Below are positions 1 to 11,894 of a stretch of DNA of 21,491 bases, in pieces. The stretch lies in IMG/VR virus record IMGVR_UViG_3300037502_001039, positions 1 through 21,491 of that record. One strand, given 5' to 3'. Origin of the DNA: a virus. The notes beneath the pieces were generated by a model that was given only the letters and a program-made list of their open reading frames with translations, searched no databases and had not been told where the DNA came from. A program made the translations under genes and the position numbers. Every line of letters starts with the position of its first letter. The first letter of the stretch is position 1.

Positions 1-99
1 CTTAGCCATGTCCGATGCGGTGTCAATGTCATCTAAGATGTCCCATAGCGTTTCCAAAGCCTCCAACGCCATCTCTGCTGCTTTGCGTAGGTCAGTCAT
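1..99 (-). CDS. Partial small phage protein, runs off left edge
   Basis: This is the first 33 codons of an open reading frame that leaves the window at base 1. It begins MTDLRKAAEMALEALETL, an alanine/leucine/glutamate-rich helix of a kind I know from many small phage proteins of unknown function. The start at 97-99 forms an ATGA overlap with the stop of the upstream gene, and an AAGGGGTGAG ribosome binding site lies just before it, inside the end of that gene. It is the last visible member of the leftward small-gene operon. No function can be assigned, and its full length is unknown. Confidence 0.7.
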   Translation of the reverse strand, partial: MTDLRKAAEMALEALETLWDILDDIDTASDMAK

Positions 100-116
100 T
101 TCTCACCCCTTGCTCG
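95..116. repeat. 22-bp direct repeat, copy 1 (at gene junction)
   Basis: Bases 95-116 are identical to bases 292-313. On the minus strand the repeat reads through ARGEK and the TGA stop of one gene, and carries the AAGGGGTGAG ribosome binding site and ATGAC start of the next. It is a complete stop/start junction that has been copied. Confidence 0.9.
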
Positions 117-296
117 AATCATCGCCGCCGCTACTACTCCTTGGTTATGCCAATCACCATGCAACCATTCTTCAACCACCTTCGCACACGCCTCACGCTC
201 TCGCTCAATAACTAATTGCACCAAGGCATAAACGGCCTCACCGACAACGACGATGCCATTTTCTTTCATCAATTCGTCTATTTCATCTCTCGTCAT
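96..296 (-). CDS. Small phage protein of unknown function (66 aa)
   Basis: A 66-residue protein, mostly predicted helix, with a central charged stretch IEREREACAKVVEEW and the ending AAAMIRARGEK. Proteins with EREACAKV and AAAIRARG motifs are common as hypothetical proteins in phages of Gram-negative bacteria, but I know no function for them. It starts in an ATGA overlap with the gene before it and ends in an ATGA overlap with the gene after it, so it is probably translationally coupled on both sides. Its last seven residues (IRARGEK) are identical to those of the preceding gene product because a 22-bp repeat covers both gene ends. Confidence 0.75.
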   Translation of the reverse strand: MTRDEIDELMKENGIVVVGEAVYALVQLVIEREREACAKVVEEWLHGDWHNQGVVAAAMIRARGEK

Positions 297-313
297 TTCT
301 CACCCCTTGCTCG
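292..313. repeat. 22-bp direct repeat, copy 2 (at gene junction)
   Basis: Second copy of the 22-bp repeat at 95-116, with no mismatch over the 22 bases. It again spans the end of one small gene, a ribosome binding site and the start of the following gene, in the same reading frame as copy 1. Confidence 0.9.
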
Positions 314-622
314 TATTGAAGGGCGTGTTGCTTTTGCAATGGCGGTACGGGCGGCTTCCACGGCCTTGATCGTTTCATCATCACGTTCCTCGTCGTAGCA
401 GCAAGACAGCATTCCACGCAGGGCTTCCAATAAATCAGGGGCAGCCGCGATTAGCCGTGCGTTAGCTTGTTGTTCTTGTGGCGGTATCGTTGCGCGAACC
501 GGAATGTTGGCAATCACGGCAGAGTGAACCCCGCGTTTGCGCGCGCTGATGCTAAAGGGGTGCGTCTTCCAATTAAAGTTTTCGTTATAAAGCCATTTTT
601 CCTTTGTGTATAACGAATTCAT
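293..622 (-). CDS. Small phage protein of unknown function (109 aa)
   Basis: A 109-residue protein. The middle has ANARLIAAAPDLLEALRGML followed by an acidic stretch (CYDEERDDET) and an alanine-rich helix. The NARLIAAAPDLLEAL motif is very frequent in short hypothetical phage and prophage proteins, so this looks like a member of that widespread family, whose role I do not know. A strong GAAAGGAG site sits a few bases before the start at 622, and the start overlaps the upstream stop as ATGA. The C-terminus IRARGEK is shared with the next gene product through a 22-bp direct repeat. Confidence 0.8.
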   Translation of the reverse strand: MNSLYTKEKWLYNENFNWKTHPFSISARKRGVHSAVIANIPVRATIPPQEQQANARLIAAAPDLLEALRGMLSCCYDEERDDETIKAVEAARTAIAKATRPSIRARGEK

Positions 623-816
623 GTTGCTCTCCTTTCAATCAGGTTAAATGGGTCATGCCATTTATAAGTCACGGGCGCAGCGTCGTAATACAAATACATA
701 TTGGATGGCCCACGTTTTTTTGTCATCAACCCTGCCTCAACCTGTCTATCCAGACGGCTACGGGCGGCTTTGAGCGAGATCTTTTTCTTCTTGGCGAAGT
801 CTTTGATGGTCATCAT
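619..816 (-). CDS. Small helix-turn-helix DNA-binding protein (65 aa)
   Basis: The N-terminal half, MTIKDFAKKKKISLKAARSR followed by LDRQVEAGLMTKKR, has the pattern of a small winged helix-turn-helix: a turn after ISLKAA, a recognition helix, then a basic wing ending in SNMYLYY. It probably binds DNA, but the target is unknown. I place the start at 816 rather than at the upstream ATG at 834, because 816 forms the ATGA overlap with the upstream stop (813-815) seen throughout this operon. The ATG at 813 is an equally possible start one codon later. The C-terminal half has no recognisable domain. It is the third DNA-binding protein in this operon. Confidence 0.7.
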   Translation of the reverse strand: MMTIKDFAKKKKISLKAARSRLDRQVEAGLMTKKRGPSNMYLYYDAAPVTYKWHDPFNLIERRAT

Positions 817-1025
817 CCTGCGAACCCCACGCATTGCTGATACGCGAGCTCATAAGCAAGGTCCTGGCATTCTTCGTTGAGCTTGTTGAGCTCCTCATCA
901 GCCAAGGCTTCGCCTGTGTCCGCCCACCGTGCAAACGAAATGTATGCTTCGCAGAAGTCTGGGTAATCCCGTGGGTCAACACCGTCAACCTCTAGGTCAG
1001 TAATCTCTCGGTCTTGAAATTTCAT
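813..1025 (-). CDS. Conserved acidic phage protein of unknown function (70 aa)
   Basis: A 70-residue acidic protein beginning MKFQDREITDLEVDGVDPRD, followed by DFCEAYISFARWADTGEALADEELNKL. The DLEVDGVD-RDYPDF block recurs in small proteins of many environmental and Gram-negative phages, and no function is known to me. The start at 1025 overlaps the upstream stop as ATGA and is preceded by AAAGGTG. The acidic, compact character would fit a protein that binds a host or phage protein, but that is only inference. Confidence 0.8.
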   Translation of the reverse strand: MKFQDREITDLEVDGVDPRDYPDFCEAYISFARWADTGEALADEELNKLNEECQDLAYELAYQQCVGFAG

Positions 1026-1312
1026 GCTGACACCTTTACAAGAAACTCTCGGCCCTTCTCCGTGATTCGTATGTAATGAATCCTCTTGTCCGCCCCTCTA
1101 ACGGGAACGTCTTCGATGAAGCGGCGGCGCTTGAGACGGGAGATGTACTTATGGGTCGAGGCCGGGGAGCTCACGCCTCGTTTCAAGCAGGCGGTGATAA
1201 GCGTCTGCGTGGGCTCGCGCTCGGAATATTCGCTCAATATTTCTAAAGCGAGCACCTCCCTTAAGTCTAACCTTAAGTCTTTTAGCATTTGGAATAAGGT
1301 AAGTGGTTTCAT
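1022..1312 (-). CDS. MarR-like winged helix-turn-helix regulator (96 aa)
   Basis: A 96-residue protein with a MarR/PadR-like winged-helix layout: a helix near residues 15-30, a helix-turn-helix about 35-63 (TQTLITACLKRGVSSPASTH, then YISRLKRRRFIED), then a beta-hairpin wing about 64-85 (VPVRGADKRIHYIRITEKG) and a short last helix. The RITEKG-REFL ending is typical of MarR-like wings. It probably binds DNA as a dimer and regulates phage or host transcription. The start at 1312 has a GGAG site about ten bases upstream. A gap of 12 bases separates it from the small membrane protein gene before it, and its stop overlaps the next start as ATGA. Confidence 0.8.
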   Translation of the reverse strand: MKPLTLFQMLKDLRLDLREVLALEILSEYSEREPTQTLITACLKRGVSSPASTHKYISRLKRRRFIEDVPVRGADKRIHYIRITEKGREFLVKVSA

Positions 1313-1324
1313 TTTGCTGAGCTC

Positions 1325-1489
1325 CTACCAAGCACCGAACCAGACGCCGGTTCCGTGGATGATGGCGATTGGAAAAAAGAGTGCTCCTGCGATAAGGAAG
1401 AACCACTCACCTTGATTGATACAGGTGATCACGTGCGTGAGCCATGATCCGAGCATCCAGAAGACGAATACGAAGCCGAAGAAATTCAT
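1325..1489 (-). CDS. Small hydrophobic membrane protein (54 aa)
   Basis: A 54-residue open reading frame starting MNFFGFVFVFWMLGSWLTHV and ending HGTGVWFGAW. It has two strongly hydrophobic stretches, about residues 2-22 and 29-46, separated by a short polar linker (INQGEW), so it should be a two-pass inner-membrane protein. The start at 1487-1489 overlaps the upstream stop as ATGA, and the frame fills what would otherwise be a gap between genes. Tiny membrane proteins in early phage operons can affect the host membrane, superinfection or lysis timing, but nothing here tells which. It is too short for a holin to be claimed with confidence. Confidence 0.75.
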   Translation of the reverse strand: MNFFGFVFVFWMLGSWLTHVITCINQGEWFFLIAGALFFPIAIIHGTGVWFGAW

Positions 1490-1731
1490 TCGCTCACCTC
1501 GATCAGTTTGTCGAGATAGTGGCGAGCTTTGCGAAGGTCTTCGATGCCGTTCTTTGATTGCCAGCGGGTAACGTACTTAACGATGTTGCCCTCGAGGTAG
1601 CCGAGCTTGTTGGAGATGATGTAATCCCAGGGTTGCATGGGCATGTCTCTATAGTGGCTGCCGCCTTCTTGAATGTCGTTGGCGGTGGTAGTTACTTTGC
1701 GGGGGCGACCGCGACCTCTTATTGCTTTCAT
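1486..1731 (-). CDS. DUF3310 family protein with AT-hook-like N-terminus
   Basis: An 81-residue protein. Residues about 24-79 match the DUF3310 phage family: HY at 26-27, QPWDYI at 33-38, GYLEGNIVKYVTRW at 44-57 and GIEDLRKARHYLDKLIE at 62-78. Phage T7 gp1.7, a nucleotide kinase, is usually placed near this family, so a role in nucleotide metabolism is possible but not shown here. The N-terminal GRGRPRK (residues 6-12) has the core of an AT-hook, a minor-groove DNA-binding motif. The start at 1731 has an AAAGGAG site and forms an ATGA overlap with the upstream stop. Confidence 0.85.
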   Translation of the reverse strand: MKAIRGRGRPRKVTTTANDIQEGGSHYRDMPMQPWDYIISNKLGYLEGNIVKYVTRWQSKNGIEDLRKARHYLDKLIEVSE

Positions 1732-2048
1732 GCTGCTTCTCCTTTGGTGGTTAAAGTAATGCCTTCGGGGCTGACTCGTACGTCGATTCGGTCTTCTGGA
1801 AGTAGATCGTCAAAGTAGACAACTCGCTCTTCGTCTTGAACGGCCAGTTCATCCTTTCCCAACTTAGACCGCTTGGGTGTAGGTTGCTCGAGCAGTTCGA
1901 TGGCCTTGGATAACAGGTCAGAAGCGGCCCAAAGGGCGTACTCTGTGTCGTCATTTGTTTCCCCCTTACAAAGTGCTACGTTTTCCATGGTGATGTTAAC
2001 GATGGCCCGTGCTTTGCATATCAGTGAATCAATTTCAATCTCATTCAT
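1728..2048 (-). CDS. Hypothetical phage protein (106 aa)
   Basis: A 106-residue acidic protein with no domain I recognise. Residues 1-53 look helical (MNEIEIDSLICKARAIVNIT, later ALWAASDLLSKAIELLEQP), followed by a Pro/Lys linker and a C-terminal part that looks beta-rich (ERVVYFDDLLPEDRIDVRVS, then GITLTTKG). The ATG at 2048 is preceded by a GGAG site and overlaps the upstream stop as ATGA. Its stop overlaps the DUF3310 gene start in the same way, so the two are probably co-translated. No function can be assigned. Confidence 0.7.
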   Translation of the reverse strand: MNEIEIDSLICKARAIVNITMENVALCKGETNDDTEYALWAASDLLSKAIELLEQPTPKRSKLGKDELAVQDEERVVYFDDLLPEDRIDVRVSPEGITLTTKGEAA

Positions 2049-2290
2049 TTGATGTATCTCCGTATGAAGTTATAAAAGCGGTCCTTGAGCCGTGAGCTTT
2101 CGCCCTTGGACTCGATGACCTCGCGTAGGTAGTCGTTGCCATCCCATGCGCGACCGGTCTGCTCGAGCAAGATGCGTTGCATCTCAGCTGCTTCTGCAAG
2201 GGCCTTGTCGCGTTCTCTGCGATAGCGCTCGGCCACCTCTTGCCAGTACATGGCATTAGCGCGTAGCGACGCCTCTTTAAGCGGCATCAT
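2045..2290 (-). CDS. Hypothetical coiled-coil phage protein (81 aa)
   Basis: The likely product starts MMPLKEASLRANAMYWQEVA and continues through a charged helix (RYRRERDKALAEAAEMQRIL) that looks like a coiled coil, ending in a basic tail (KDRFYNFIRRYIK). The frame stays open upstream to 2380, but that extension lies inside the preceding gene. The ATGs at 2288-2290 and 2285-2287 give only a short overlap with it, so I use 2290. Short coiled-coil proteins of this type are common in phage early operons, and no function is known to me. The stop overlaps the next gene start as ATGA. Confidence 0.65.
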   Translation of the reverse strand: MMPLKEASLRANAMYWQEVAERYRRERDKALAEAAEMQRILLEQTGRAWDGNDYLREVIESKGESSRLKDRFYNFIRRYIK

Positions 2291-2501
2291 GGACGCCAAC
2301 CTTATCGAGGAAGTTCTTCTTGATTGACCTATCCCAAGCTTCGCCCATCTGATCAAGGCCTCGCAGATGCCCTTTACCAAAGGCTGTGATCACCATTTCG
2401 ATGATGTTGCATCTCTCAGTGTTGTCGAGCTTGTTAACGTCCATTGCTTCTTCAAGCTCTGCCAATACGGACTGTACGGTGGGCCATTCTGGTGTTGACA
2501 T
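2277..2501 (-). CDS. Hypothetical phage protein (74 aa)
   Basis: A 74-residue, mostly helical protein starting MSTPEWPTVQSVLAELEEAM, without a recognisable domain. An AGAAAGGAAT ribosome binding site precedes the start, inside the sequence CTTTTAGAAAGGAA that also occurs, nearly unchanged, before the genes starting at 2710 and 9657. It begins two bases after the stop of the upstream gene and its end overlaps the next gene by 14 bases. No function can be assigned. Confidence 0.65.
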   Translation of the reverse strand: MSTPEWPTVQSVLAELEEAMDVNKLDNTERCNIIEMVITAFGKGHLRGLDQMGEAWDRSIKKNFLDKVGVHDAA

Positions 2502-2503
2502 GA

Positions 2504-2710
2504 TTAATTCCTTTCTAAAAGTATTTCGTCTTCTAAGTTGATGATCTGCGATTCGTCTAGCACTCGCAGAAGGTTTGCACCGTTCTTACCAGCTTCACCT
2601 TTTGCATAGACCTTAACAATGTCTATTTGTTCCGGAAAACCATTCTCAGCTGGTTCGATGGTGTAGTGCACTTCTACATCAAGGATTACTTGGGTCTGTA
2701 AGGTTGGCAT
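2504..2710 (-). CDS. Hypothetical phage protein (68 aa)
   Basis: A 68-residue protein starting MPTLQTQVILDVEVHYTIEP. The pattern suggests two or three beta strands (VILDVEVHYTIEP, QIDIVKVYAKG) and a short C-terminal helix. I prefer the start at 2708-2710 to the ATG at 2746, because AGAAAGGAAGGAG lies directly before 2710 and the longer form would overlap the upstream gene more. With this start the overlap with the ribbon-helix-helix gene is 32 bases. No domain or function recognised. An all-beta phage anti-host protein or a small binding protein are possibilities that the sequence does not decide. Confidence 0.65.
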   Translation of the reverse strand: MPTLQTQVILDVEVHYTIEPAENGFPEQIDIVKVYAKGEAGKNGANLLRVLDESQIINLEDEILLERN

Positions 2711-2891
2711 CTCCTTCCTTTCTAAAGTATTGGTCAAAAGCATCATCCAGCAGACGCTGAAGCATTGCGTTTACAGATACATTGTTTGCCTTTGCCAGAT
2801 CAACGAGCTTTGCTTTGTACTCTGCGCGAACAGAGATGGTGTGCCAAGACTTGTTACGGGCATTAGGGCTTAATTCGCGTTGTAGAACCAT
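2679..2891 (-). CDS. Ribbon-helix-helix (Arc/CopG-like) DNA-binding regulator (70 aa)
   Basis: A 70-residue protein with a ribbon-helix-helix layout: strand SWHTISVRAEY (residues 15-25), helix KAKLVDLAKANN, turn, and second helix VSVNAMLQRLLDDAFDQYF, ending in a short acidic tail. Arc/CopG-type proteins bind DNA as dimers through the paired strands and usually repress their own promoter. This is the first gene of the leftward small-gene operon. Its promoter region holds a perfect palindrome (2927-2938) within the promoter spacer, a natural candidate for its binding site. GAAAGGAG precedes the start at 2891. Antitoxins share this fold, but no toxin-like partner is visible next to it. Confidence 0.8.
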   Translation of the reverse strand: MVLQRELSPNARNKSWHTISVRAEYKAKLVDLAKANNVSVNAMLQRLLDDAFDQYFRKEGDANLTDPSNP

Positions 2892-2913
2892 GATTTCTCC
2901 TTTCTTGCTTCGC

Positions 2914-2942
2914 AGTGTATCGCAAGACTACCGGTAGTGCAA
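2914..2942 (-). promoter_or_regulatory. Candidate sigma70-type promoter of the small-gene operon
   Basis: On the minus strand, TTGCAC (2937-2942) and TACACT (2914-2919) are separated by exactly 17 bases, and the -10 ends 22 bases before the ATG of the ribbon-helix-helix gene. Matches to the consensus hexamers are moderate (3/6 and 4/6), but spacing and position are right, and the downstream terminator-like hairpin of the polymerase operon ends just before it. Confidence 0.5.
2927..2938. promoter_or_regulatory. 12-bp perfect palindrome, candidate operator
   Basis: ACTACCGGTAGT is identical to its own reverse complement. It lies inside the spacer of the candidate promoter and overlaps the last two bases of the -35 hexamer, so a bound protein would block RNA polymerase. 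The ribbon-helix-helix product encoded immediately downstream is the obvious candidate ligand. An 11-of-12 match occurs at 11784-11795. Confidence 0.55.
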
Positions 2943-2953
2943 ATGGGTAGGAG

Positions 2954-2999
2954 AAAAAGGGTGGGGCGAGACGCCAAGAGAGGGAAAGCGCCTCGCCCC
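2954..2999 (-). terminator. Terminator-like hairpin after the DNA polymerase gene
   Basis: GGGGCGAG (2963-2970) and CTCGCCCC (2992-2999) form an 8-bp GC-rich stem, extended by CGC/GCG after one mismatch. On the minus strand the stem is followed by a run of five T (2954-2958) after a few bases. It lies between the stop of the polymerase gene and the promoter of the next operon, as expected for an intrinsic terminator, although the T-run is short and offset. Confidence 0.6.
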
Positions 3000-3001
3000 G
3001 A

Positions 3002-3054
3002 GTGCTCCCTGTGAGAGCACCAAAGGAGGCTTCACGCTGTCTAGGACGCGAAGC
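3002..3054. other. Two further hairpins in the 2892-3061 gene-free junction
   Basis: GTGCTC (3002-3007) pairs with GAGCAC (3015-3020) around a 7-base loop, and GCTTC (3029-3033) pairs with GAAGC (3050-3054), extended by two more pairs after a mismatch. With the terminator-like hairpin at 2954-2999 they make three consecutive hairpins downstream of the polymerase gene. The 170-base junction holds no convincing gene. An open frame at 2863-3075 overlaps both neighbours and has no ribosome binding site. Confidence 0.5.
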
Positions 3055-3061
3055 ACCTTCA

Positions 3062-4924
3062 TTATGTGGCCTCACCCCAACTGGGTCCAGTCTCTACGTC
3101 AACTTTCGACGGGATTTCCAAATCGACTGCCGTCCGCATGATTTCAGCTGCTTCAAGGGCCTCCTTCTTCGAGTAGACTGAAAGCGCGATCTCGTCATGA
3201 ACTTGCAGTAGAAGCTTGAATCCAGCCTTATGCAAAGCAATCATCCCGGCCTTCGTTTGGTCAGCAGCCGAGCCTTGAATAAGGCGATTCAGTCCTTTGT
3301 AAGTGAACGCTCGCTTAATCGAACGACCATATTCTATAACGGCCTGCTCATACGGCAGGGCCTTGTTTACGCCCCACTGCGTCGGCTCCCAGAGCGGGAA
3401 GCGGCACTTCCTTCCCAGCAACGTCCGAATTGAGCCGCCTGAAGCCGGGTGCTCGATCCTCTTTTGCACGGCGTTGACCGTGCCACGCAGGAAGGGAACC
3501 TTGGTGTGGAAGGTCTGAATCAAGGTTTCTGCTTCGTCGAGCGGTAAATCGAGCTCGTTAGCAAGCTTGTTCTTGCCCATGCCATACATCAGGCCAAGGC
3601 CAATCGTCTTGGCTTGCTTGCGTTTGATACCTGCCATGTCCGCGACCATCTTGTGAAAGTCCGTATCAGGATTTTCCCTGTAGGCGTCGGCCATCTTCTC
3701 TGCACCGGGCAAGTCTAAAAGCGCTGAGTAGTGGACCAAGAGCCGTGGTTCTTGTGACGAGAAGTCGCATGCGGCCCACGTGTCACCTTCTTCTGGTAGG
3801 AAGAGACCACGGACCATAGGGCCGATGACCTCATGCCGTGCAGGGACTTGCTGTAAGTTGGGTGATGCCATAGAAAGACGGCCTGTGACCGTGCCGCCAT
3901 CATCAGAGCGCAGCTGATTGACGTGTGGGTGGATGCGCCCATCGGCTTCTGAGAAGTCGAGGTAGGGCTGGAGAAACGTGCCGTGGGTTTTGTTGAGCTC
4001 TCGTGCTTCGACGATGAGCTTGGCGATGGGGTGGTCGTGCGTTTGAAGGAAGGTGCGGGTGAAGCTTGGCAGGCCGGTGTTGCTTTTGGGGTAGGAGAGC
4101 TTGAGCTTGTCGAAGGCCTGGGCGACGCTGGCGGCGGCCCAGATCTCCACGGGCGCGCCGGTCATACGCTTGAGGTGGTTTTGCAGATCCTCTTCGCGCT
4201 CCTGCATCTGTACCATAAGCTTCTTGGCCTTGTCGCGGTCGAAGCGGATGCCCTTCTTGGTGAGATTGATGAGGATGGGAAGAAGTTCCGTCTCAAGATT
4301 AAAAATTGATTCGACCTCTTCCTTCCGCAGGATGGACTTAAATGCTTGCCAGAGCTTTAGCGTGAGCGCGGCGTCCTGCTCTGCGTACTCACCGACGAAC
4401 ATCGCGGGGAGCTTCCACAGTTCCTTCTTAGCGTGGACGTTGAAGTCGCTGGCGGCTTCTTTCAGTGCCTGTTCAGACTTGATCTCTTTGAGGTAGTCAA
4501 AGCCCAAGGCGTTGAGGCTGTATGAGAAACGGTTTTCATCGATCAGCGGGGCCGCGATCATTGTGTCCAGGATTCGACCTTTAATTTCGTACCCTGAGGC
4601 GAGGAGCCATCCGCAATCGTAAGCTGCATTGTGCATGACCTTATCACAGGGAAGCAGAAGAACTCTTCGGATGAAACGCTCAACGAGCCCCTGGTCAAGA
4701 TTCCCTCCACCTTGATGTCTAACTGGGAAGTATCCGCACCATCCGTCAGTAGCGAGGGCGTAACCAACAATGTAGCCATCGTTTCGAGGCCATCCCGGCC
4801 CGTATTTTTCCATGTGAGGGTCACAGGTTTCGAGGTCAATTGCGATCTCCTTTGCATCCGATAAATCGGGAAATTTTTCTGGTGGAACCCACTCCGTTTG
4901 GCGTGGGAAGAGCGGTAACGTCAT
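3062..4924 (-). CDS. Family A DNA polymerase with 3'-5' exonuclease (620 aa)
   Basis: This is the replicative phage DNA polymerase. Proofreading domain: D30/E32 in AIDLET, N99/D103 in HNAAYD, and Y180/D184 in YAEQD. Polymerase domain: TGRLSMASPNLQ (347-358), motif A D387 in ACDFSSQEPR, motif B RKQAKTIGLGLMYG (435-448) with K439 and Y447, and motif C H576-D577-E578 in QVHDE. There is no 5'-nuclease domain, as in T7-like enzymes. The residue equivalent to E. coli Pol I F762 is L443. The ATG at 4924 overlaps the UvrD-like helicase stop as ATGA, so the two are probably translationally coupled. All catalytic residues I can check are present, and the length is normal for this class. Confidence 0.97.
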   Translation of the reverse strand: MTLPLFPRQTEWVPPEKFPDLSDAKEIAIDLETCDPHMEKYGPGWPRNDGYIVGYALATDGWCGYFPVRHQGGGNLDQGLVERFIRRVLLLPCDKVMHNAAYDCGWLLASGYEIKGRILDTMIAAPLIDENRFSYSLNALGFDYLKEIKSEQALKEAASDFNVHAKKELWKLPAMFVGEYAEQDAALTLKLWQAFKSILRKEEVESIFNLETELLPILINLTKKGIRFDRDKAKKLMVQMQEREEDLQNHLKRMTGAPVEIWAAASVAQAFDKLKLSYPKSNTGLPSFTRTFLQTHDHPIAKLIVEARELNKTHGTFLQPYLDFSEADGRIHPHVNQLRSDDGGTVTGRLSMASPNLQQVPARHEVIGPMVRGLFLPEEGDTWAACDFSSQEPRLLVHYSALLDLPGAEKMADAYRENPDTDFHKMVADMAGIKRKQAKTIGLGLMYGMGKNKLANELDLPLDEAETLIQTFHTKVPFLRGTVNAVQKRIEHPASGGSIRTLLGRKCRFPLWEPTQWGVNKALPYEQAVIEYGRSIKRAFTYKGLNRLIQGSAADQTKAGMIALHKAGFKLLLQVHDEIALSVYSKKEALEAAEIMRTAVDLEIPSKVDVETGPSWGEAT

Positions 4925-6423
4925 ATGCGAAAACCTCTATTTGAATACTCGGGAAGGATGAGATGCAGTGACTTCTTAGCCCGTGTTGCGGCAACGTAGG
5001 CGAGTCGATACATGTCATCAGGTCGTATGTCGTATTCCTTTGAGAACTTGGCAGACAGATCCATGAAGAAGACCACGTGGTCAGCCTCTCCGCCTTTTGC
5101 CCCGTGGATCGTGGAGAGTTTTACTTGCGGGGTGCTGGTGAGCTTTGTGCCTCGGCGCAAGAGCGAGATGATGTAGTCGCGTTTCTCTTCGGCAATTTTG
5201 GTTAAAGCCTCGTGCCAAATGACATCAGTTTTTAGGCCGTGGTCCGTGGTCAGTGTCTCCATGCTGTAGGAGCGCTCTGGGTCGGCTGTTTTAAGGTTCT
5301 TATGGCCTCGAGCGATGAAGTCTGAGCCGAGGTGTTTGTAGATCTGTTCAACAACGCGGAAGGGGACTTCTTGGCCCTTGCGTAGGGTTTCCCATCCGAG
5401 CACGGCAGACAAGATGTTCTCGGAAATGCTGCGGTTGCCGTTGCGCTCAAAGAGAATGCCTTGGGACTTGAGCCATGGGTGAACGGGGTCGAGGATGTAG
5501 TTTGCGGCGGCAAGAACTAGCCATGTGCCTTCTATGTTGAAGTTAACTGGCGTGATGCTGCTGTAATAGTGAATCTCGCCTTTTTCCTCGCGCGCCTCCC
5601 ATGTTTTGGGTTGACGCTTACGAATTCGTTTGACAATGTTTTCTGCCAACTCGTGCACTGTCTTCGGGATACGGTAGGACTTGTTGAGCACTCGCACTTC
5701 CCCTGGAAGAGAGAGAAATGTTCCAACGTCCGCTCCTGCCCAAGCATAGATTGCTTGATCGTCATCACCTGCAATGTAGGTATCGTCAGAGCGTTCGATG
5801 AGGTTCTTCACCAGATCCCATTGGATAGGGGAGAGGTCTTGTGCTTCATCGACAATCACCGTCTTGAGCCGTGGTAAACGCTCGGGCTCGAGATTGATTT
5901 TTTCGAGTAAGTCGGTGAAGTCAAAGAGCATGCGCTCTTCTTTGTACTGACGGTAGGTGCGCTCGACAAACTCAAAGTGCCACCATTCGATAGGGAGGTT
6001 GGAGAGGTTGTAGTGCGTGCGAAGGTCAAGCTTCTTGATCCGTGCGAGATTGACCTCGTTCAAGATTGGGTTGTTGGCCTTAACGAAGCCCTCTTCCTCG
6101 CCCGTCTCCTCGATGGTCATATCAAGGCGCGCAAGCTTGCCAAACTCTTCGTAGTGCTCTGGCGACATCATGTCGTTCTGCTTCACGCCTAGGCAGCGGT
6201 AAGCAAGACTGTGTAGCGTCCTGAACCACGGGAAGTCTGTAGCGCCTTGGAGGTTAGGAAACTTCACAATCGCGCGCTCTTTGGCCTCAGTGGCTGCCTT
6301 GCGGGTGAAGGCGAAGTAGCCAATGTCAATGGGCAATAGGCCGCGATCAAGCTCTTGCTCAACGGTATTGAGCAAGAACGTTGTCTTACCGGTCCCTGGG
6401 GGACCAAAGATTTTCCGTATCAA
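4921..6423 (-). CDS. UvrD/PcrA-like superfamily 1 DNA helicase (500 aa)
   Basis: An ATP-driven DNA unwinding enzyme of the UvrD type. Seen in order: Walker A GPPGTGKTT (7-15), FTRKAATEAKER (motif Ia region, 39-50), DEAQD (192-196), GDDDQAIYAWAG (219-230), the SYR motif about 249-251, TIHGAKGGEADHV (438-450) and YVAATRAKK (476-484). At 500 residues it is shorter than bacterial UvrD (about 720), so accessory subdomains are reduced, as is usual in phage versions. It lies between primase and polymerase with ATGA overlaps at both ends, which suggests a direct role in phage DNA replication or recombination rather than host-type repair. Confidence 0.95.
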   Translation of the reverse strand: MIRKIFGPPGTGKTTFLLNTVEQELDRGLLPIDIGYFAFTRKAATEAKERAIVKFPNLQGATDFPWFRTLHSLAYRCLGVKQNDMMSPEHYEEFGKLARLDMTIEETGEEEGFVKANNPILNEVNLARIKKLDLRTHYNLSNLPIEWWHFEFVERTYRQYKEERMLFDFTDLLEKINLEPERLPRLKTVIVDEAQDLSPIQWDLVKNLIERSDDTYIAGDDDQAIYAWAGADVGTFLSLPGEVRVLNKSYRIPKTVHELAENIVKRIRKRQPKTWEAREEKGEIHYYSSITPVNFNIEGTWLVLAAANYILDPVHPWLKSQGILFERNGNRSISENILSAVLGWETLRKGQEVPFRVVEQIYKHLGSDFIARGHKNLKTADPERSYSMETLTTDHGLKTDVIWHEALTKIAEEKRDYIISLLRRGTKLTSTPQVKLSTIHGAKGGEADHVVFFMDLSAKFSKEYDIRPDDMYRLAYVAATRAKKSLHLILPEYSNRGFRI

Positions 6424-7946
6424 AATGGACTCCCTTTCTGGCTTTCTGGTGTATCGAAGGGTGCGTCTTGCTTCTCAAAACGCGGGATGGACCAGCACCG
6501 TGTTGCGCGGCCCTTTAAAAAAAGTGGGATGGGCTCTCCACCGATGTCACGCAGGCGCTGCGCGATCTTGGCTGAGTTCAGTCCAACGAAGTTGTTCCTT
6601 TTGAGGTGACCCTCCAGATCCTTGATCCGGAAGTAGACCTTCGCGGTTTCTTCTTCGGTCCAGGGCCGTCCCATGAGGATTTCGTCTCGGTCCATTGCCT
6701 GTTGGAGGTGGGTCGTAAATTCTTCCAAGAGGTCAATAAAACGGCCAGTGAGGCTTGTGTCTTGTGGCGCTTCAATGATCTGCTCTAGCTCAACCATCTC
6801 ACGCAGGAGCGCGTTGAGCATGCCTTCCCAATCTTGTTTGCGTAGGGTGGGCGGGAGCATGTTGATCTTTTCAACACAGGCCTTCTGGAAAAGGCTCTGG
6901 TTGTACAAACTATCTGTCTCCAACTCCACCCGCCTGCCGTCCACGTTTAAGAACCAAAGGGGCGGTTCTGAATTGTACTTCGACAGGCTCGAGAGCTTTG
7001 GTGCGTCTGGACCATTGCCACCGATACCAAACTTGCGCGTCCTGCAAAGCCCTGCGTTGCAGAAGCTGTTGAGCGGTTGGTCTTTGCACTTGTAGTGGTA
7101 TTCCTTTTTGTTCAGTTGCTTGACGAGCACCTGCACCTCAGAGATCTGTAGCGGTGGTCCGAGGTACTTCATGTTGTGTTCGTAAAGCGGGTTCTCCCAA
7201 TCGTTGGGATTAACCTTCTTCAAGTAGATGCCGATGTTGAAGAGGCCATTGTTCCGTGTGCCTTCAGGAAAGCCCTGTCCACAAAGAGCCTGGAGGCATG
7301 GTGGGCCGTCCTTGATCGGCTGGTCTGGTTGAACGGGAGGCTCAACAGAAGGCAAACCGTCTTGCACGTAGCTATCGTAAAGGACATAAAACTCTTCGAG
7401 TGAGGCAGCGGTGCCGTCTTCTTTGAAGGCATAGCGCATACCGTCATCGCCTGCGAAGTAAGGCAGGTTCAAAAAGTTGCCGGTGTCTCCGCGCTCAACC
7501 AAGATCTCCGACTGCTTAGGGAAGATCTCCCTGCCAGCCTCGCCTAAAAGGGCGGCCATTGTTTTGAGGCAGTCCTGCATGTCACCAGCAGGCACGGGTT
7601 CTTTGGTAAAGAGAAAGCAATGCGCGCCGCCTGATTTACTTCGGCAGACGACGAGCGGAAGTTTGAGCTTAAGAACTTTTTCGACCAAACCTTTGTGGTC
7701 TAACGGGTATTGGTCAATGTCAATGCATCCCCAGATGCATGTGTTATCAGACTTAATAGGGATGATTCCGAGCGAAGGCTCTACGCCTTGTAAGTGCTTC
7801 TCCCAGAGCTCGTCCGTGGGTGCTTGGCGCACAACGACGCCCTTCCCCGTTTGCTTACCATCGCCCCTGGATTTTTCAATCTTGTACGTTCCATAGGCAA
7901 ACTCCAGCCCGGAGAAAATTGCCTTAAACCGTGTTATATCGGTCAT
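6420..7946 (-). CDS. Archaeo-eukaryotic-type primase with PriL-like Cys domain (508 aa)
   Basis: A primase of the archaeo-eukaryotic superfamily, which makes primers for the polymerase. Catalytic signs: CIDID with D76 and D78 (metal binding), SKSGGAH ending at H109, the EIFPKQ region at 140-145 and GNFLNLPY at 156-163. A second domain begins PPCLQALCGQ at 215-224, continues with GTRNNGLFNIGIYLKK (229-244), and ends with C287, C296 and C301. With C217 these give four cysteines in a pattern that recalls the Fe-S domain of PriL. The C-terminal part (about 455-490, KIAQRLRDIGG) looks like a small winged helix. An AGAAAG site precedes the start. The stop overlaps the helicase start as ATGA. Confidence 0.85.
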   Translation of the reverse strand: MTDITRFKAIFSGLEFAYGTYKIEKSRGDGKQTGKGVVVRQAPTDELWEKHLQGVEPSLGIIPIKSDNTCIWGCIDIDQYPLDHKGLVEKVLKLKLPLVVCRSKSGGAHCFLFTKEPVPAGDMQDCLKTMAALLGEAGREIFPKQSEILVERGDTGNFLNLPYFAGDDGMRYAFKEDGTAASLEEFYVLYDSYVQDGLPSVEPPVQPDQPIKDGPPCLQALCGQGFPEGTRNNGLFNIGIYLKKVNPNDWENPLYEHNMKYLGPPLQISEVQVLVKQLNKKEYHYKCKDQPLNSFCNAGLCRTRKFGIGGNGPDAPKLSSLSKYNSEPPLWFLNVDGRRVELETDSLYNQSLFQKACVEKINMLPPTLRKQDWEGMLNALLREMVELEQIIEAPQDTSLTGRFIDLLEEFTTHLQQAMDRDEILMGRPWTEEETAKVYFRIKDLEGHLKRNNFVGLNSAKIAQRLRDIGGEPIPLFLKGRATRCWSIPRFEKQDAPFDTPESQKGSPF

Positions 7947-9732: not shown

Positions 9733-11187
9733 ATGGAAGACAAGTACCTAGCCGCTTATCCCTTTAAGAACAAGCCTTTCTTGCATCAGCAGGCGTACTT
9801 ACAGCGCTTTTGGAAAGAGCCTGTGTGCGCGCTTTTTGCTGACACGGGTACAGGCAAGAGCTTCATGCTCATCAACAACATTGCGATGTTGTACGACCAG
9901 GGTCATATCAACGCAGCGCTTATCGTCGCACCCAAGGGCGTTTACCGTAACTGGCTAAAGGTCGAGGTTCCAAAGCACATGCCTGAGCACGTCATCTATC
10001 GCATGGCGATCTGGAATCCTTCACCACGTAAGGACGAGAAGAAGTCCCTTGATTCGTTGTTCGAGGTCAGTGAGGACTTGAAGATCTTGGTGATGAACAT
10101 CGAGGCCTTCTCTACGCCTAAGGGTGCAACCTTTGCACAGTCGTTCTTACGTAGCCACAACGCGTTCTTCGCGGTGGACGAGAGCACGACGATTAAAAAC
10201 CATTCAGCGCAGAGGACTAAGTCCACAATCAAGGCAGGCAAGCTTGCGCGGTTTCGACGCATTGCGACAGGGTCGCCTGTGACCAAGAGCCCGATGGATC
10301 TCTTCTCACAGTGTGAGTTCTTGCATCCGGATTGTTTGGGCATCCATTCCTTTTATGCTTTTCAGGCGCGGTACGCGATCCTTGTTGAGCGCTCAGTTGC
10401 CACGCACAGCTTCAAGCAGGTGGTGGGCTATAGGCACTTGGATGAGATCCACGAGAAGCTTAGTCGGTTCAGCTTTCGGGTTCGGAAGGATGAATGCTTT
10501 GATTTGCCGGACAAGGTCTTCCTGAAGCGTGAGGTAGAGCTCACCACAGAACAGCGCCGTGCGTATGACCAGATGGTGTTGATGGCCTTGGCTACGTTTG
10601 AGGCTGGTATGACAACCACGACTAATGCGCTGACGCAGATCATGCGGTTGCAACAGATAGTCTGTGGTCATGTGACCTTGGACGATGGGCAGATAGTCCC
10701 GCTTAAGAACAACAGGCTTGATGAACTGCTCTCAGCCATCGAGGAGTCAGACGGCAAGATCATCATCTGGGCGCACTTCAGGCATGACATCGAGGCTATA
10801 AAACTTGCATTGCAGAAGGCCTACGGGATGAACTCTGTGGCGACCTACTTTGGTGACACAAAGGCCGAAGAAAGGTCCGAGATTGTGGATCGTTTTTCTG
10901 ATGAAAAGAGTGATCTGCGTTTCTTTGTTGGGCAGCCTAGGACGGGTGGATACGGACTTACCCTAACCTCTGCACACACGATGATCTACTACAGCAACGG
11001 CTACGACCTGGAGGTGCGGTTGCAGTCAGAGGCACGGATTGACCGCTACGGCCAGACCAAGAAAATGACATACATCGACCTGTTTACGCCCAATACGGTG
11101 GACGAGAAGATCGTCGATGCGCTTTTGGACAAGATGGACATCGCTAACGCAATACTTAAGGAAAACCCTAGGGAGTGGATCAAATGA
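9733..11187 (+). CDS. SNF2-family DNA helicase/translocase (484 aa)
   Basis: An ATP-dependent DNA translocase of superfamily 2, SNF2 type. Seen in order: Q-motif-like PFLHQQAYLQRF (15-26), Walker A DTGTGKS (37-43), IVAPKGVYRNW (64-74), motif II VDESTTIKN (148-156, DEST in place of DEAH), TGSP (179-182), then the second RecA-like domain with IIIWAHFRHDIE (343-354), GGYGLTLTSA (405-414) and QSEARIDRYGQ (431-441), whose arginines are expected to act in ATP hydrolysis. AGAAAGAGAG precedes the start. It is divergent from the replication operon and its stop overlaps the start of the nuclease gene as ATGA. A role in replication-fork remodelling or recombination with that nuclease is inferred. Confidence 0.93.
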   Translation: MEDKYLAAYPFKNKPFLHQQAYLQRFWKEPVCALFADTGTGKSFMLINNIAMLYDQGHINAALIVAPKGVYRNWLKVEVPKHMPEHVIYRMAIWNPSPRKDEKKSLDSLFEVSEDLKILVMNIEAFSTPKGATFAQSFLRSHNAFFAVDESTTIKNHSAQRTKSTIKAGKLARFRRIATGSPVTKSPMDLFSQCEFLHPDCLGIHSFYAFQARYAILVERSVATHSFKQVVGYRHLDEIHEKLSRFSFRVRKDECFDLPDKVFLKREVELTTEQRRAYDQMVLMALATFEAGMTTTTNALTQIMRLQQIVCGHVTLDDGQIVPLKNNRLDELLSAIEESDGKIIIWAHFRHDIEAIKLALQKAYGMNSVATYFGDTKAEERSEIVDRFSDEKSDLRFFVGQPRTGGYGLTLTSAHTMIYYSNGYDLEVRLQSEARIDRYGQTKKMTYIDLFTPNTVDEKIVDALLDKMDIANAILKENPREWIK

Positions 11188-11894
11188 TTGACATGATTCC
11201 GATCCGAAAGAAGTACGTCTACGAGAAGCTCGAGCGGGTAGATGGCCCTGAGGGGCGGACCTACGGCGAGCAAAAGTTGCCTAGCGTCACCAGAATCCTG
11301 GCCGCGACGAAGGATACGACTGCTCTTGATGCGTGGGCCGAGAGGATTGGCAAAGACAACGCGGAGCGGATTAAGAACGAGGCGGCGACCGTGGGCACAC
11401 ACATGCACATGGTCATGGATCGGATGATCGCAGGGAGGGATCTCCCTAGGCCTACGAGTTGGCTCATGACCCGTGGGTATGAAATGGGCTATCGATTAAT
11501 CAACACTTACTTTCCCAATCTGCAAGAGATTTGGGGCTCAGAAGTCACGCTCTACTATCCTAACAAGTACGCAGGGACGACTGACCTAGTGGGTGTGTAT
11601 AGGGGAAAACCCGCAATCGTGGACTTCAAACAGGCTAATAAGCCCAAAAAGCACGAATGGATCCAAGACTACTTCCACCAACTGGCCGCCTATGCTCTGG
11701 CGCACGACGAAATCCACGGTTCGCACATCGAATTTGGGGCTGTTTTAGTCTCCGTGCAGGACGGAACTACCCAAGAATTCACTACTACCGGTAGCGAATT
11801 CTTGGAGTATAAGGCTCAGTGGATGGAACGGGTGGACGCCTACTGGAGAGGCGATCCGGCGCGCAGCGTCGTGTCAAACGGGAAGAGTGACTGA
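11184..11894 (+). CDS. RecB-like PD-(D/E)XK nuclease (236 aa)
   Basis: A probable DNA exonuclease of the PD-(D/E)XK superfamily (RecB/phage-exonuclease branch). The core is seen at E120 (GSEVTLYY), D134 in GTTDLVG, D147-F-K149 in IVDFKQANKPK, and Q166 in QLAAYA. Upstream, GTHMH (71-75) supplies the helical His motif common in this branch. There is no cysteine cluster, so it is not a Fe-S Cas4. I use the ATG at 11184, which overlaps the SNF2 stop as ATGA and has AGGGAG nine bases upstream, rather than the GTG at 11175. It probably works with the SNF2 protein in processing DNA ends. Its last 55 bases overlap, on the opposite strand, the end of the 1140-residue structural gene. Confidence 0.88.
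   Translation: MIDMIPIRKKYVYEKLERVDGPEGRTYGEQKLPSVTRILAATKDTTALDAWAERIGKDNAERIKNEAATVGTHMHMVMDRMIAGRDLPRPTSWLMTRGYEMGYRLINTYFPNLQEIWGSEVTLYYPNKYAGTTDLVGVYRGKPAIVDFKQANKPKKHEWIQDYFHQLAAYALAHDEIHGSHIEFGAVLVSVQDGTTQEFTTTGSEFLEYKAQWMERVDAYWRGDPARSVVSNGKSD
11771..11805. repeat. Inverted repeat around a copy of the candidate operator
   Basis: CCAAGAATTC (11771-11780) and GAATTCTTGG (11796-11805) are perfect 10-bp inverted arms. Between them lies CTACCGGTAG (11785-11794), itself a perfect 10-bp palindrome. With one base on each side (11784-11795) it matches the candidate operator at 2927-2938 in 11 of 12 positions. The whole lies inside the nuclease coding sequence. Confidence 0.6.

Follow-up and report, generated by a model that had tools for sequence, protein, structure and literature searches.

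What is the role of a perfect palindrome that lies in the predicted promoter of a small phage gene? The locus belongs to the window analyzed here, a stretch of 21,491 nucleotides from a virus (IMG/VR record IMGVR_UViG_3300037502_001039), and the gene encodes a 70-residue protein with a predicted ribbon-helix-helix (RHH) fold. Because evolution has kept the palindrome beside a gene that encodes a small DNA-binding protein, it is probably the self-control switch of that protein. From sequence comparison, we put at about 0.6 the probability that it serves as operator for the RHH protein of the gene immediately downstream, with auxiliary sites inside other genes. Such a self-control switch is ordinary phage regulation, while the dispersed copies inside genes are less ordinary.

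The palindrome and the transcription unit it precedes

The proposed primary operator, ACTACCGGTAGT, occupies positions 2927-2938 and is a perfect 12-bp palindrome, found only once in exact form in the 21,491-base record. The existence of such a palindrome is in itself unremarkable, since the window contains three perfect 12-bp palindromes where about five are expected by chance. Its conservation at one position among relatives and its enrichment in the lineage, both described below, do exceed chance.

Read along the minus strand, the region has the order TTGCAC-TACCGGTAGTCTTGCGA-TACACT, followed by the Shine-Dalgarno sequence AAAGGAGA (2896-2903, minus strand), which is kept in the aligned relatives, and then by the ATG of the 70-codon gene. 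The two hexamers, proposed as -35 (TTGCAC, 2937-2942, minus strand) and -10 (TACACT, 2914-2919, minus strand) elements, are separated by 17 bases. An earlier note on this DNA had placed the palindrome within that spacer. The palindrome and the spacer length are exactly as described there, but the palindrome overlaps the -35 hexamer rather than lying wholly in the spacer, because its first two bases (2938-2937) are also the last two of TTGCAC; it thus covers the end of the -35 element and the upstream half of the spacer.

Both hexamers are weak by consensus, TTGCAC matching TTGACA at three of six positions (by inspection) and TACACT matching TATAAT at four of six, and a consensus scan of 2700-3080 reported no sigma-70 promoter. 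TTGCAC is invariant across all site-bearing relatives. Their best -10 hexamers, found at a spacing of 17 or 18 (for example TATAGT, TAATAT and TACAGT), are weak in some cases.

Just upstream, the replication operon that includes the family A DNA polymerase gene (3062-4924, minus strand) ends in an intrinsic terminator (2954-2999, minus strand), made of a 13-bp G+C stem and a T-rich tail. The hairpin has a folding energy of -27.9 kcal/mol (z -5.8), and relatives carry a stem and T-run at the matching position. As this strong terminator closes the polymerase operon, a new transcription unit begins at the RHH promoter. The palindrome lies over the predicted -35 element and spacer of the regulator's own gene and directly upstream of it. 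A reading of the palindrome as an RNA hairpin was rejected, given that the dyad is perfect and leaves no loop and that the site is upstream of the predicted transcription start.

The protein encoded downstream (2679-2891, minus strand) is the proposed autorepressor. In a Pfam scan it scored 12.6 against RHH_1 (PF01402), whose cut-off is 20.5, and 13.2 against Antitox_RHH, whose cut-off is 27.2; by sequence, it is consequently not a member of PF01402. PHROGs profiles of partition and Arc-like repressor families matched it weakly (3e-5 to 4e-3), and a profile and sequence search of the PDB gave no significant match (best value 0.12). An AlphaFold model built from 16 relatives contains helices at residues 23-35 and 40-62, with a pLDDT of about 90-94 in the two-helix core, and this compact core of about 45 residues is of the RHH type. 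No strand was assigned in the monomer model; the β-strand would form only in the dimer. The best Foldseek matches in the PDB are RHH proteins (CopASO, AmrZ, CopG, Arc and MatP); for CopASO, AmrZ, CopG and Arc the probabilities are 0.98-1.0 and the TM scores, taken by target, reach 0.83. The predicted RHH fold, already named in the earlier note, is thus well supported even though the sequence falls outside the curated families.

The RHH gene heads an operon of about 12 small genes (96-2891, minus strand) that extends to the edge of the window, in agreement with the ten or more genes proposed previously. The genes lie on the same strand and are tightly packed, neighbors being separated by -32 to +12 bases. 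Among the members are a DUF3310 protein (1486-1731, minus strand), a weak winged-helix match (1022-1312, minus strand) and a partner gene that overlaps the RHH gene (2504-2710, minus strand). The partner encodes about 69 amino acids with the conserved pattern '..PEQ[VI]DI...LEDEI..'; it comes after the RHH gene throughout the phage group and may be a conserved effector of the operon. Profile scans, including Pfam and PHROGs, recognized no lysis gene in the operon. The integration function that would mark a temperate-phage immunity region was sought as PF00589 integrase, which was absent from 12 related records, some of them possibly incomplete. The suggestion that the arrangement acts as a lysis/replication timing switch is therefore speculation.

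The site in related phages

Searches with the RHH sequence alone gave no match in viral contigs and one weak match in a phage collection. For this reason, relatives were reached through the adjacent DNA polymerase, which retrieved 80 viral contigs. The closest named phage is DSL-LC04, with a polymerase 77% identical to that of the window; its authors propose the name 'Dishuiviridae' (PMC10611076). Most of the contigs fetched in this way carry an RHH-type gene after the polymerase and, behind it, the same partner gene.

About 15 related contigs have the sequence TTGCACTACC[C/G]GTAG between the polymerase terminator and the RHH gene. The carriers of the promoter site are the window, L005, L009-L013, L015-L017, L110, L153-L155 and L191. 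In nine representative promoters, no other stretch between terminator and start codon stays invariant over so great a length (14 of 15 columns), and the remaining intergenic region has diverged far more than the palindrome. In L010, L011 and L153/L191, the center of the site has C in place of G, with the CTAC and GTAG arms invariant in these promoters. The RHH proteins of site-bearing relatives are mostly about 30% identical to that of the window, those of L154 and L155 reaching 49%. A search of the viral contigs with the exact 21-mer gave no match, and the 15-mer TTGCACTACCSGTAG gave at least 119 matches, mostly coincidences in coding sequence, among which only L153, L154, L155 and L191 added to the promoter class.

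The site and the RHH gene co-occur in most site-bearing loci, and the expectation that the palindrome would recur at the same position beside the same gene holds among close relatives. It breaks down in two directions. In the first, L006 and L007 keep the promoter and a 14-bp palindrome, CACTACCGGTAGTG (L006:2774-2850 and the same region of L007), followed directly by the partner gene, the adjacent RHH gene being missing. Strict linkage of site and gene thus fails in these two contigs, which are close kin and short fragments of about 4-5 kb (under 5.5 kb). The RHH gene is present in L005, which has almost the same polymerase as L006, and its absence from L006 and L007 may reflect a recent loss or a location of the gene elsewhere.

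In the second, more distant relatives have an RHH gene after the DNA polymerase but no such site. As these wider relatives keep the protein without the palindrome, either the operator would be lineage-specific or the pairing of site and RHH protein would not be obligatory. The distant RHH proteins have longer basic N-termini. AT-hook-like basic N-terminal extensions (KRKRGRPKKNGRPKK) were observed in L053, L070, L073, L076 and others, and are absent from the palindrome-bearing lineage.

Another arrangement is seen in L008 and L304, whose promoters lack the palindrome and contain two copies of GGTGTATA as a direct repeat, possibly a different type of operator for the same RHH family. In both, the RHH gene contains ACTACC[C/T]GTAGT within its first codons. 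These two loci (L008:3840-3910 and L304:1700-1780) represent a sister lineage with a near-consensus promoter. If the intragenic copies are functional, the relatives offer a natural series, with the site in the promoter, in the first codons, or without the regulator, along which the turnover of operator and regulator could be traced.

Two further loci deserve mention. Among the bacterial genomes searched, only one phage-like contig was found, in a Verrucomicrobia bin and without the site; this contig, L305 (CAJAHH010000075.1), contains the polymerase-RHH-partner region and is either a misbinned phage or a hint of the host. In L014 (7918-8785), and among the relatives only there, a reading frame of 288 amino acids, possibly a mobile insertion, lies between the polymerase and the RHH gene.

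Copies inside coding sequence

To compare the site with other palindromes, we counted them in 187 kb from seven site-bearing contigs. The 10-bp core CTACCGGTAG is the commonest palindrome of its length, with 12 copies against 5 for the next, where about 0.05 would be expected in all across the 187 kb under a first-order Markov model. ACTACCGGTAGT is likewise the commonest 12-bp palindrome in the same sequences (7 copies, the next having 3). In 308 kb from five relatives without the promoter site, CTACCGGTAG has zero copies, and the comparison of four non-promoter positions in carriers with none in the site-less relatives gives a Fisher p of 0.02. Most of the longer contigs contain 2-4 sites, one of them in the promoter. 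As copies also occur inside other genes, the site is not solely a promoter element.

The window contains a second site, ACTACCGGTAGC, at 11784-11795 on the plus strand, 8.9 kb from the promoter site. It lies in an exonuclease gene (phrog_298; 11175-11894, plus strand), within the codons of the peptide TTGS. The exonuclease site is also present in G001, G010 and G017. Of 17 runs in the four carriers, only ACT ACC GGT is invariant, against a baseline of 17%, in a comparison of genes that were chosen for carrying the site. The structural genes of G001 contain copies as well.

The DNA polymerase gene of the window has no site, whereas that of the L008-L017/L110 lineage carries it as CTA CCG GTA; the L304 polymerase also has the site. 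Of the 37 runs of three degenerate codons with conserved residues in 10 loci, CTA CCG GTA alone is invariant, where single codons of this kind are invariant in 10% of cases. The polymerase copy is thus under constraint at the level of codons. If the copies inside genes are functional, regulatory DNA is kept in replication genes by codon choice, and it is this upkeep of operator copies that would be of interest to specialists.

Candidate binders and known parallels

In the mechanism that we favor, the RHH protein would accumulate until its dimers bind the two arms of the palindrome (CTAC..GTAG) over the -35 element and spacer. The bound dimers would then block RNA polymerase, and the operon would shut itself down by negative autoregulation. 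The exonuclease copy, and in one sublineage the polymerase copy, would act as auxiliary sites through cooperative bridging or titration. The autorepressor arrangement suggested in the earlier note gains from the conserved site, the RHH fold and the upstream terminator, and is weakened by the exceptions to site-gene pairing and by the intragenic copies. It provides a concrete candidate pair of regulator and operator for an uncultivated group of phages, which appears in many metagenome contigs.

A more far-reaching version, which we advance tentatively and think rather improbable, is that the RHH protein links the early-operon promoter with operators inside replication genes as a looping, roadblock or DNA-organizing factor, the sites being kept up through codon choice within essential genes. 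The distances to be spanned would be 8.9 kb for the exonuclease and about 570 bp for the polymerase in one sublineage, in phages among which no integrase was detected.

The main rival holds that the palindrome is the operator of a different protein, be it a regulator of the host or some other factor of the phage, and that the RHH gene is merely the first of the operon. The promoter and palindrome of L006 and L007, which stand without an RHH gene, point in this direction, as do the distant relatives with an RHH gene and no site. Furthermore, the presumed DNA-facing ribbon residues differ, by eye, among RHH proteins that share the same site. Among the window genes tested, however, no other tracks the site, and copies within phage replication genes are easier to explain by a reader that the phage itself encodes. 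We consider a different binder doubtful on balance.

Less probable still is that the invariant TTGCACTACCSGTAG serves a host or phage-modified RNA polymerase as an unusual promoter element, an extended -35 region, and is not an operator. In favor of this, the TTGCA upstream of the palindrome is equally invariant, and the -35 hexamer otherwise matches sigma-70 poorly. The exonuclease and polymerase copies, which lie within coding sequence and lack TTGCA, argue against a pure promoter element. Relatives also manage without TTGCACTACCSGTAG, L008 for instance having TTGACA/TATATT, and the dyad symmetry suggests a dimeric protein.

Two other explanations appear very improbable. RHH antitoxins with palindromic operators are common and are present among the fold matches, and the RHH and partner genes overlap and stay paired across the phage group, so that the two could be taken for a toxin-antitoxin pair with its usual operator; this is disfavored because the L006 and L007 fragments keep the partner without an adjacent RHH gene, a state that should not be allowed for a toxin without its antitoxin, and the longer partner reading frame (2504-2746) had no toxin match in PHROGs or Pfam scans. 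That the site is kept by common descent only, its intragenic copies being coding coincidences of LPV and TTGS peptides, would fit the polymerase tree, in which most carriers group together (L153 being separate on a long branch) and a single clade is not rejected (p-AU 0.14), and the exonuclease of G006, which lost the site and retained the peptide, but is disfavored by the divergence of the surrounding intergenic region, the invariance of the polymerase codons and a copy number above expectation (P ~3e-5).

Autorepression by the RHH protein, the first half of the favored mechanism, would by analogy follow the known pattern of Arc, CopG and SvtR. The Arc operator lies between the -10 and -35 elements of its promoter. 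Arc of Salmonella phage P22, as well as Mnt, resembles the present case as a small phage RHH protein beside a short dyad operator over promoter elements; in addition, the fold of the window protein matches Arc structures, and the Arc-like repressor profiles of PHROGs match it weakly. The Arc operator is, however, unrelated in sequence, Arc belongs to a temperate-phage immunity region whereas no integrase was found in the 12 records related to the window, and the window lineage has further copies inside replication genes. CopG, which represses plasmid copy number, and the RHH_1 family share the fold (1b01, 1ea4), and CopG autoregulates a small operon, but the window locus is not a plasmid replication control region and its PF01402 score is below the cut-off.

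MatP, a larger RHH protein with extra domains, organizes the chromosome terminus through dispersed sites. It is among the fold matches (7nyw, 4d8j), and palindromic sites are dispersed in both systems; unlike matS, the sites of the window lineage number few per contig, with one of them in a promoter.

The closest precedent is SvtR of the archaeal virus SIRV1, an RHH protein that acts as repressor at its own promoter and binds three other sites in the viral genome (PMC5569661). SvtR would share with the window protein a site at its own promoter and additional sites elsewhere, and its structure, PDB 2kel, is among the Foldseek matches. It differs in its archaeal host and transcription machinery, in its binding sequence and in its best known target, which is the promoter of a structural gene, in contrast to sites inside replication genes here. 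The stoperators of Cluster A mycobacteriophages are repressor sites at the repressor's own locus and dispersed over the phage genome (PMC6550527), as is proposed for the sites of the window lineage. They are far more numerous and belong to temperate phages, and they are asymmetric sites to which a repressor binds that is monomeric and not of the RHH type (PMC9283540).

Within the operon, the winged-helix gene was also considered as a shared reader of the sites and was rejected, being absent from G001, G006 and G010. Elsewhere in the window, the primase encoded at 6420-7946 has an archaeo-eukaryotic primase domain of the TOTE type (PF22548), and the phage with this primase also has the family A polymerase and a UvrD-like helicase.
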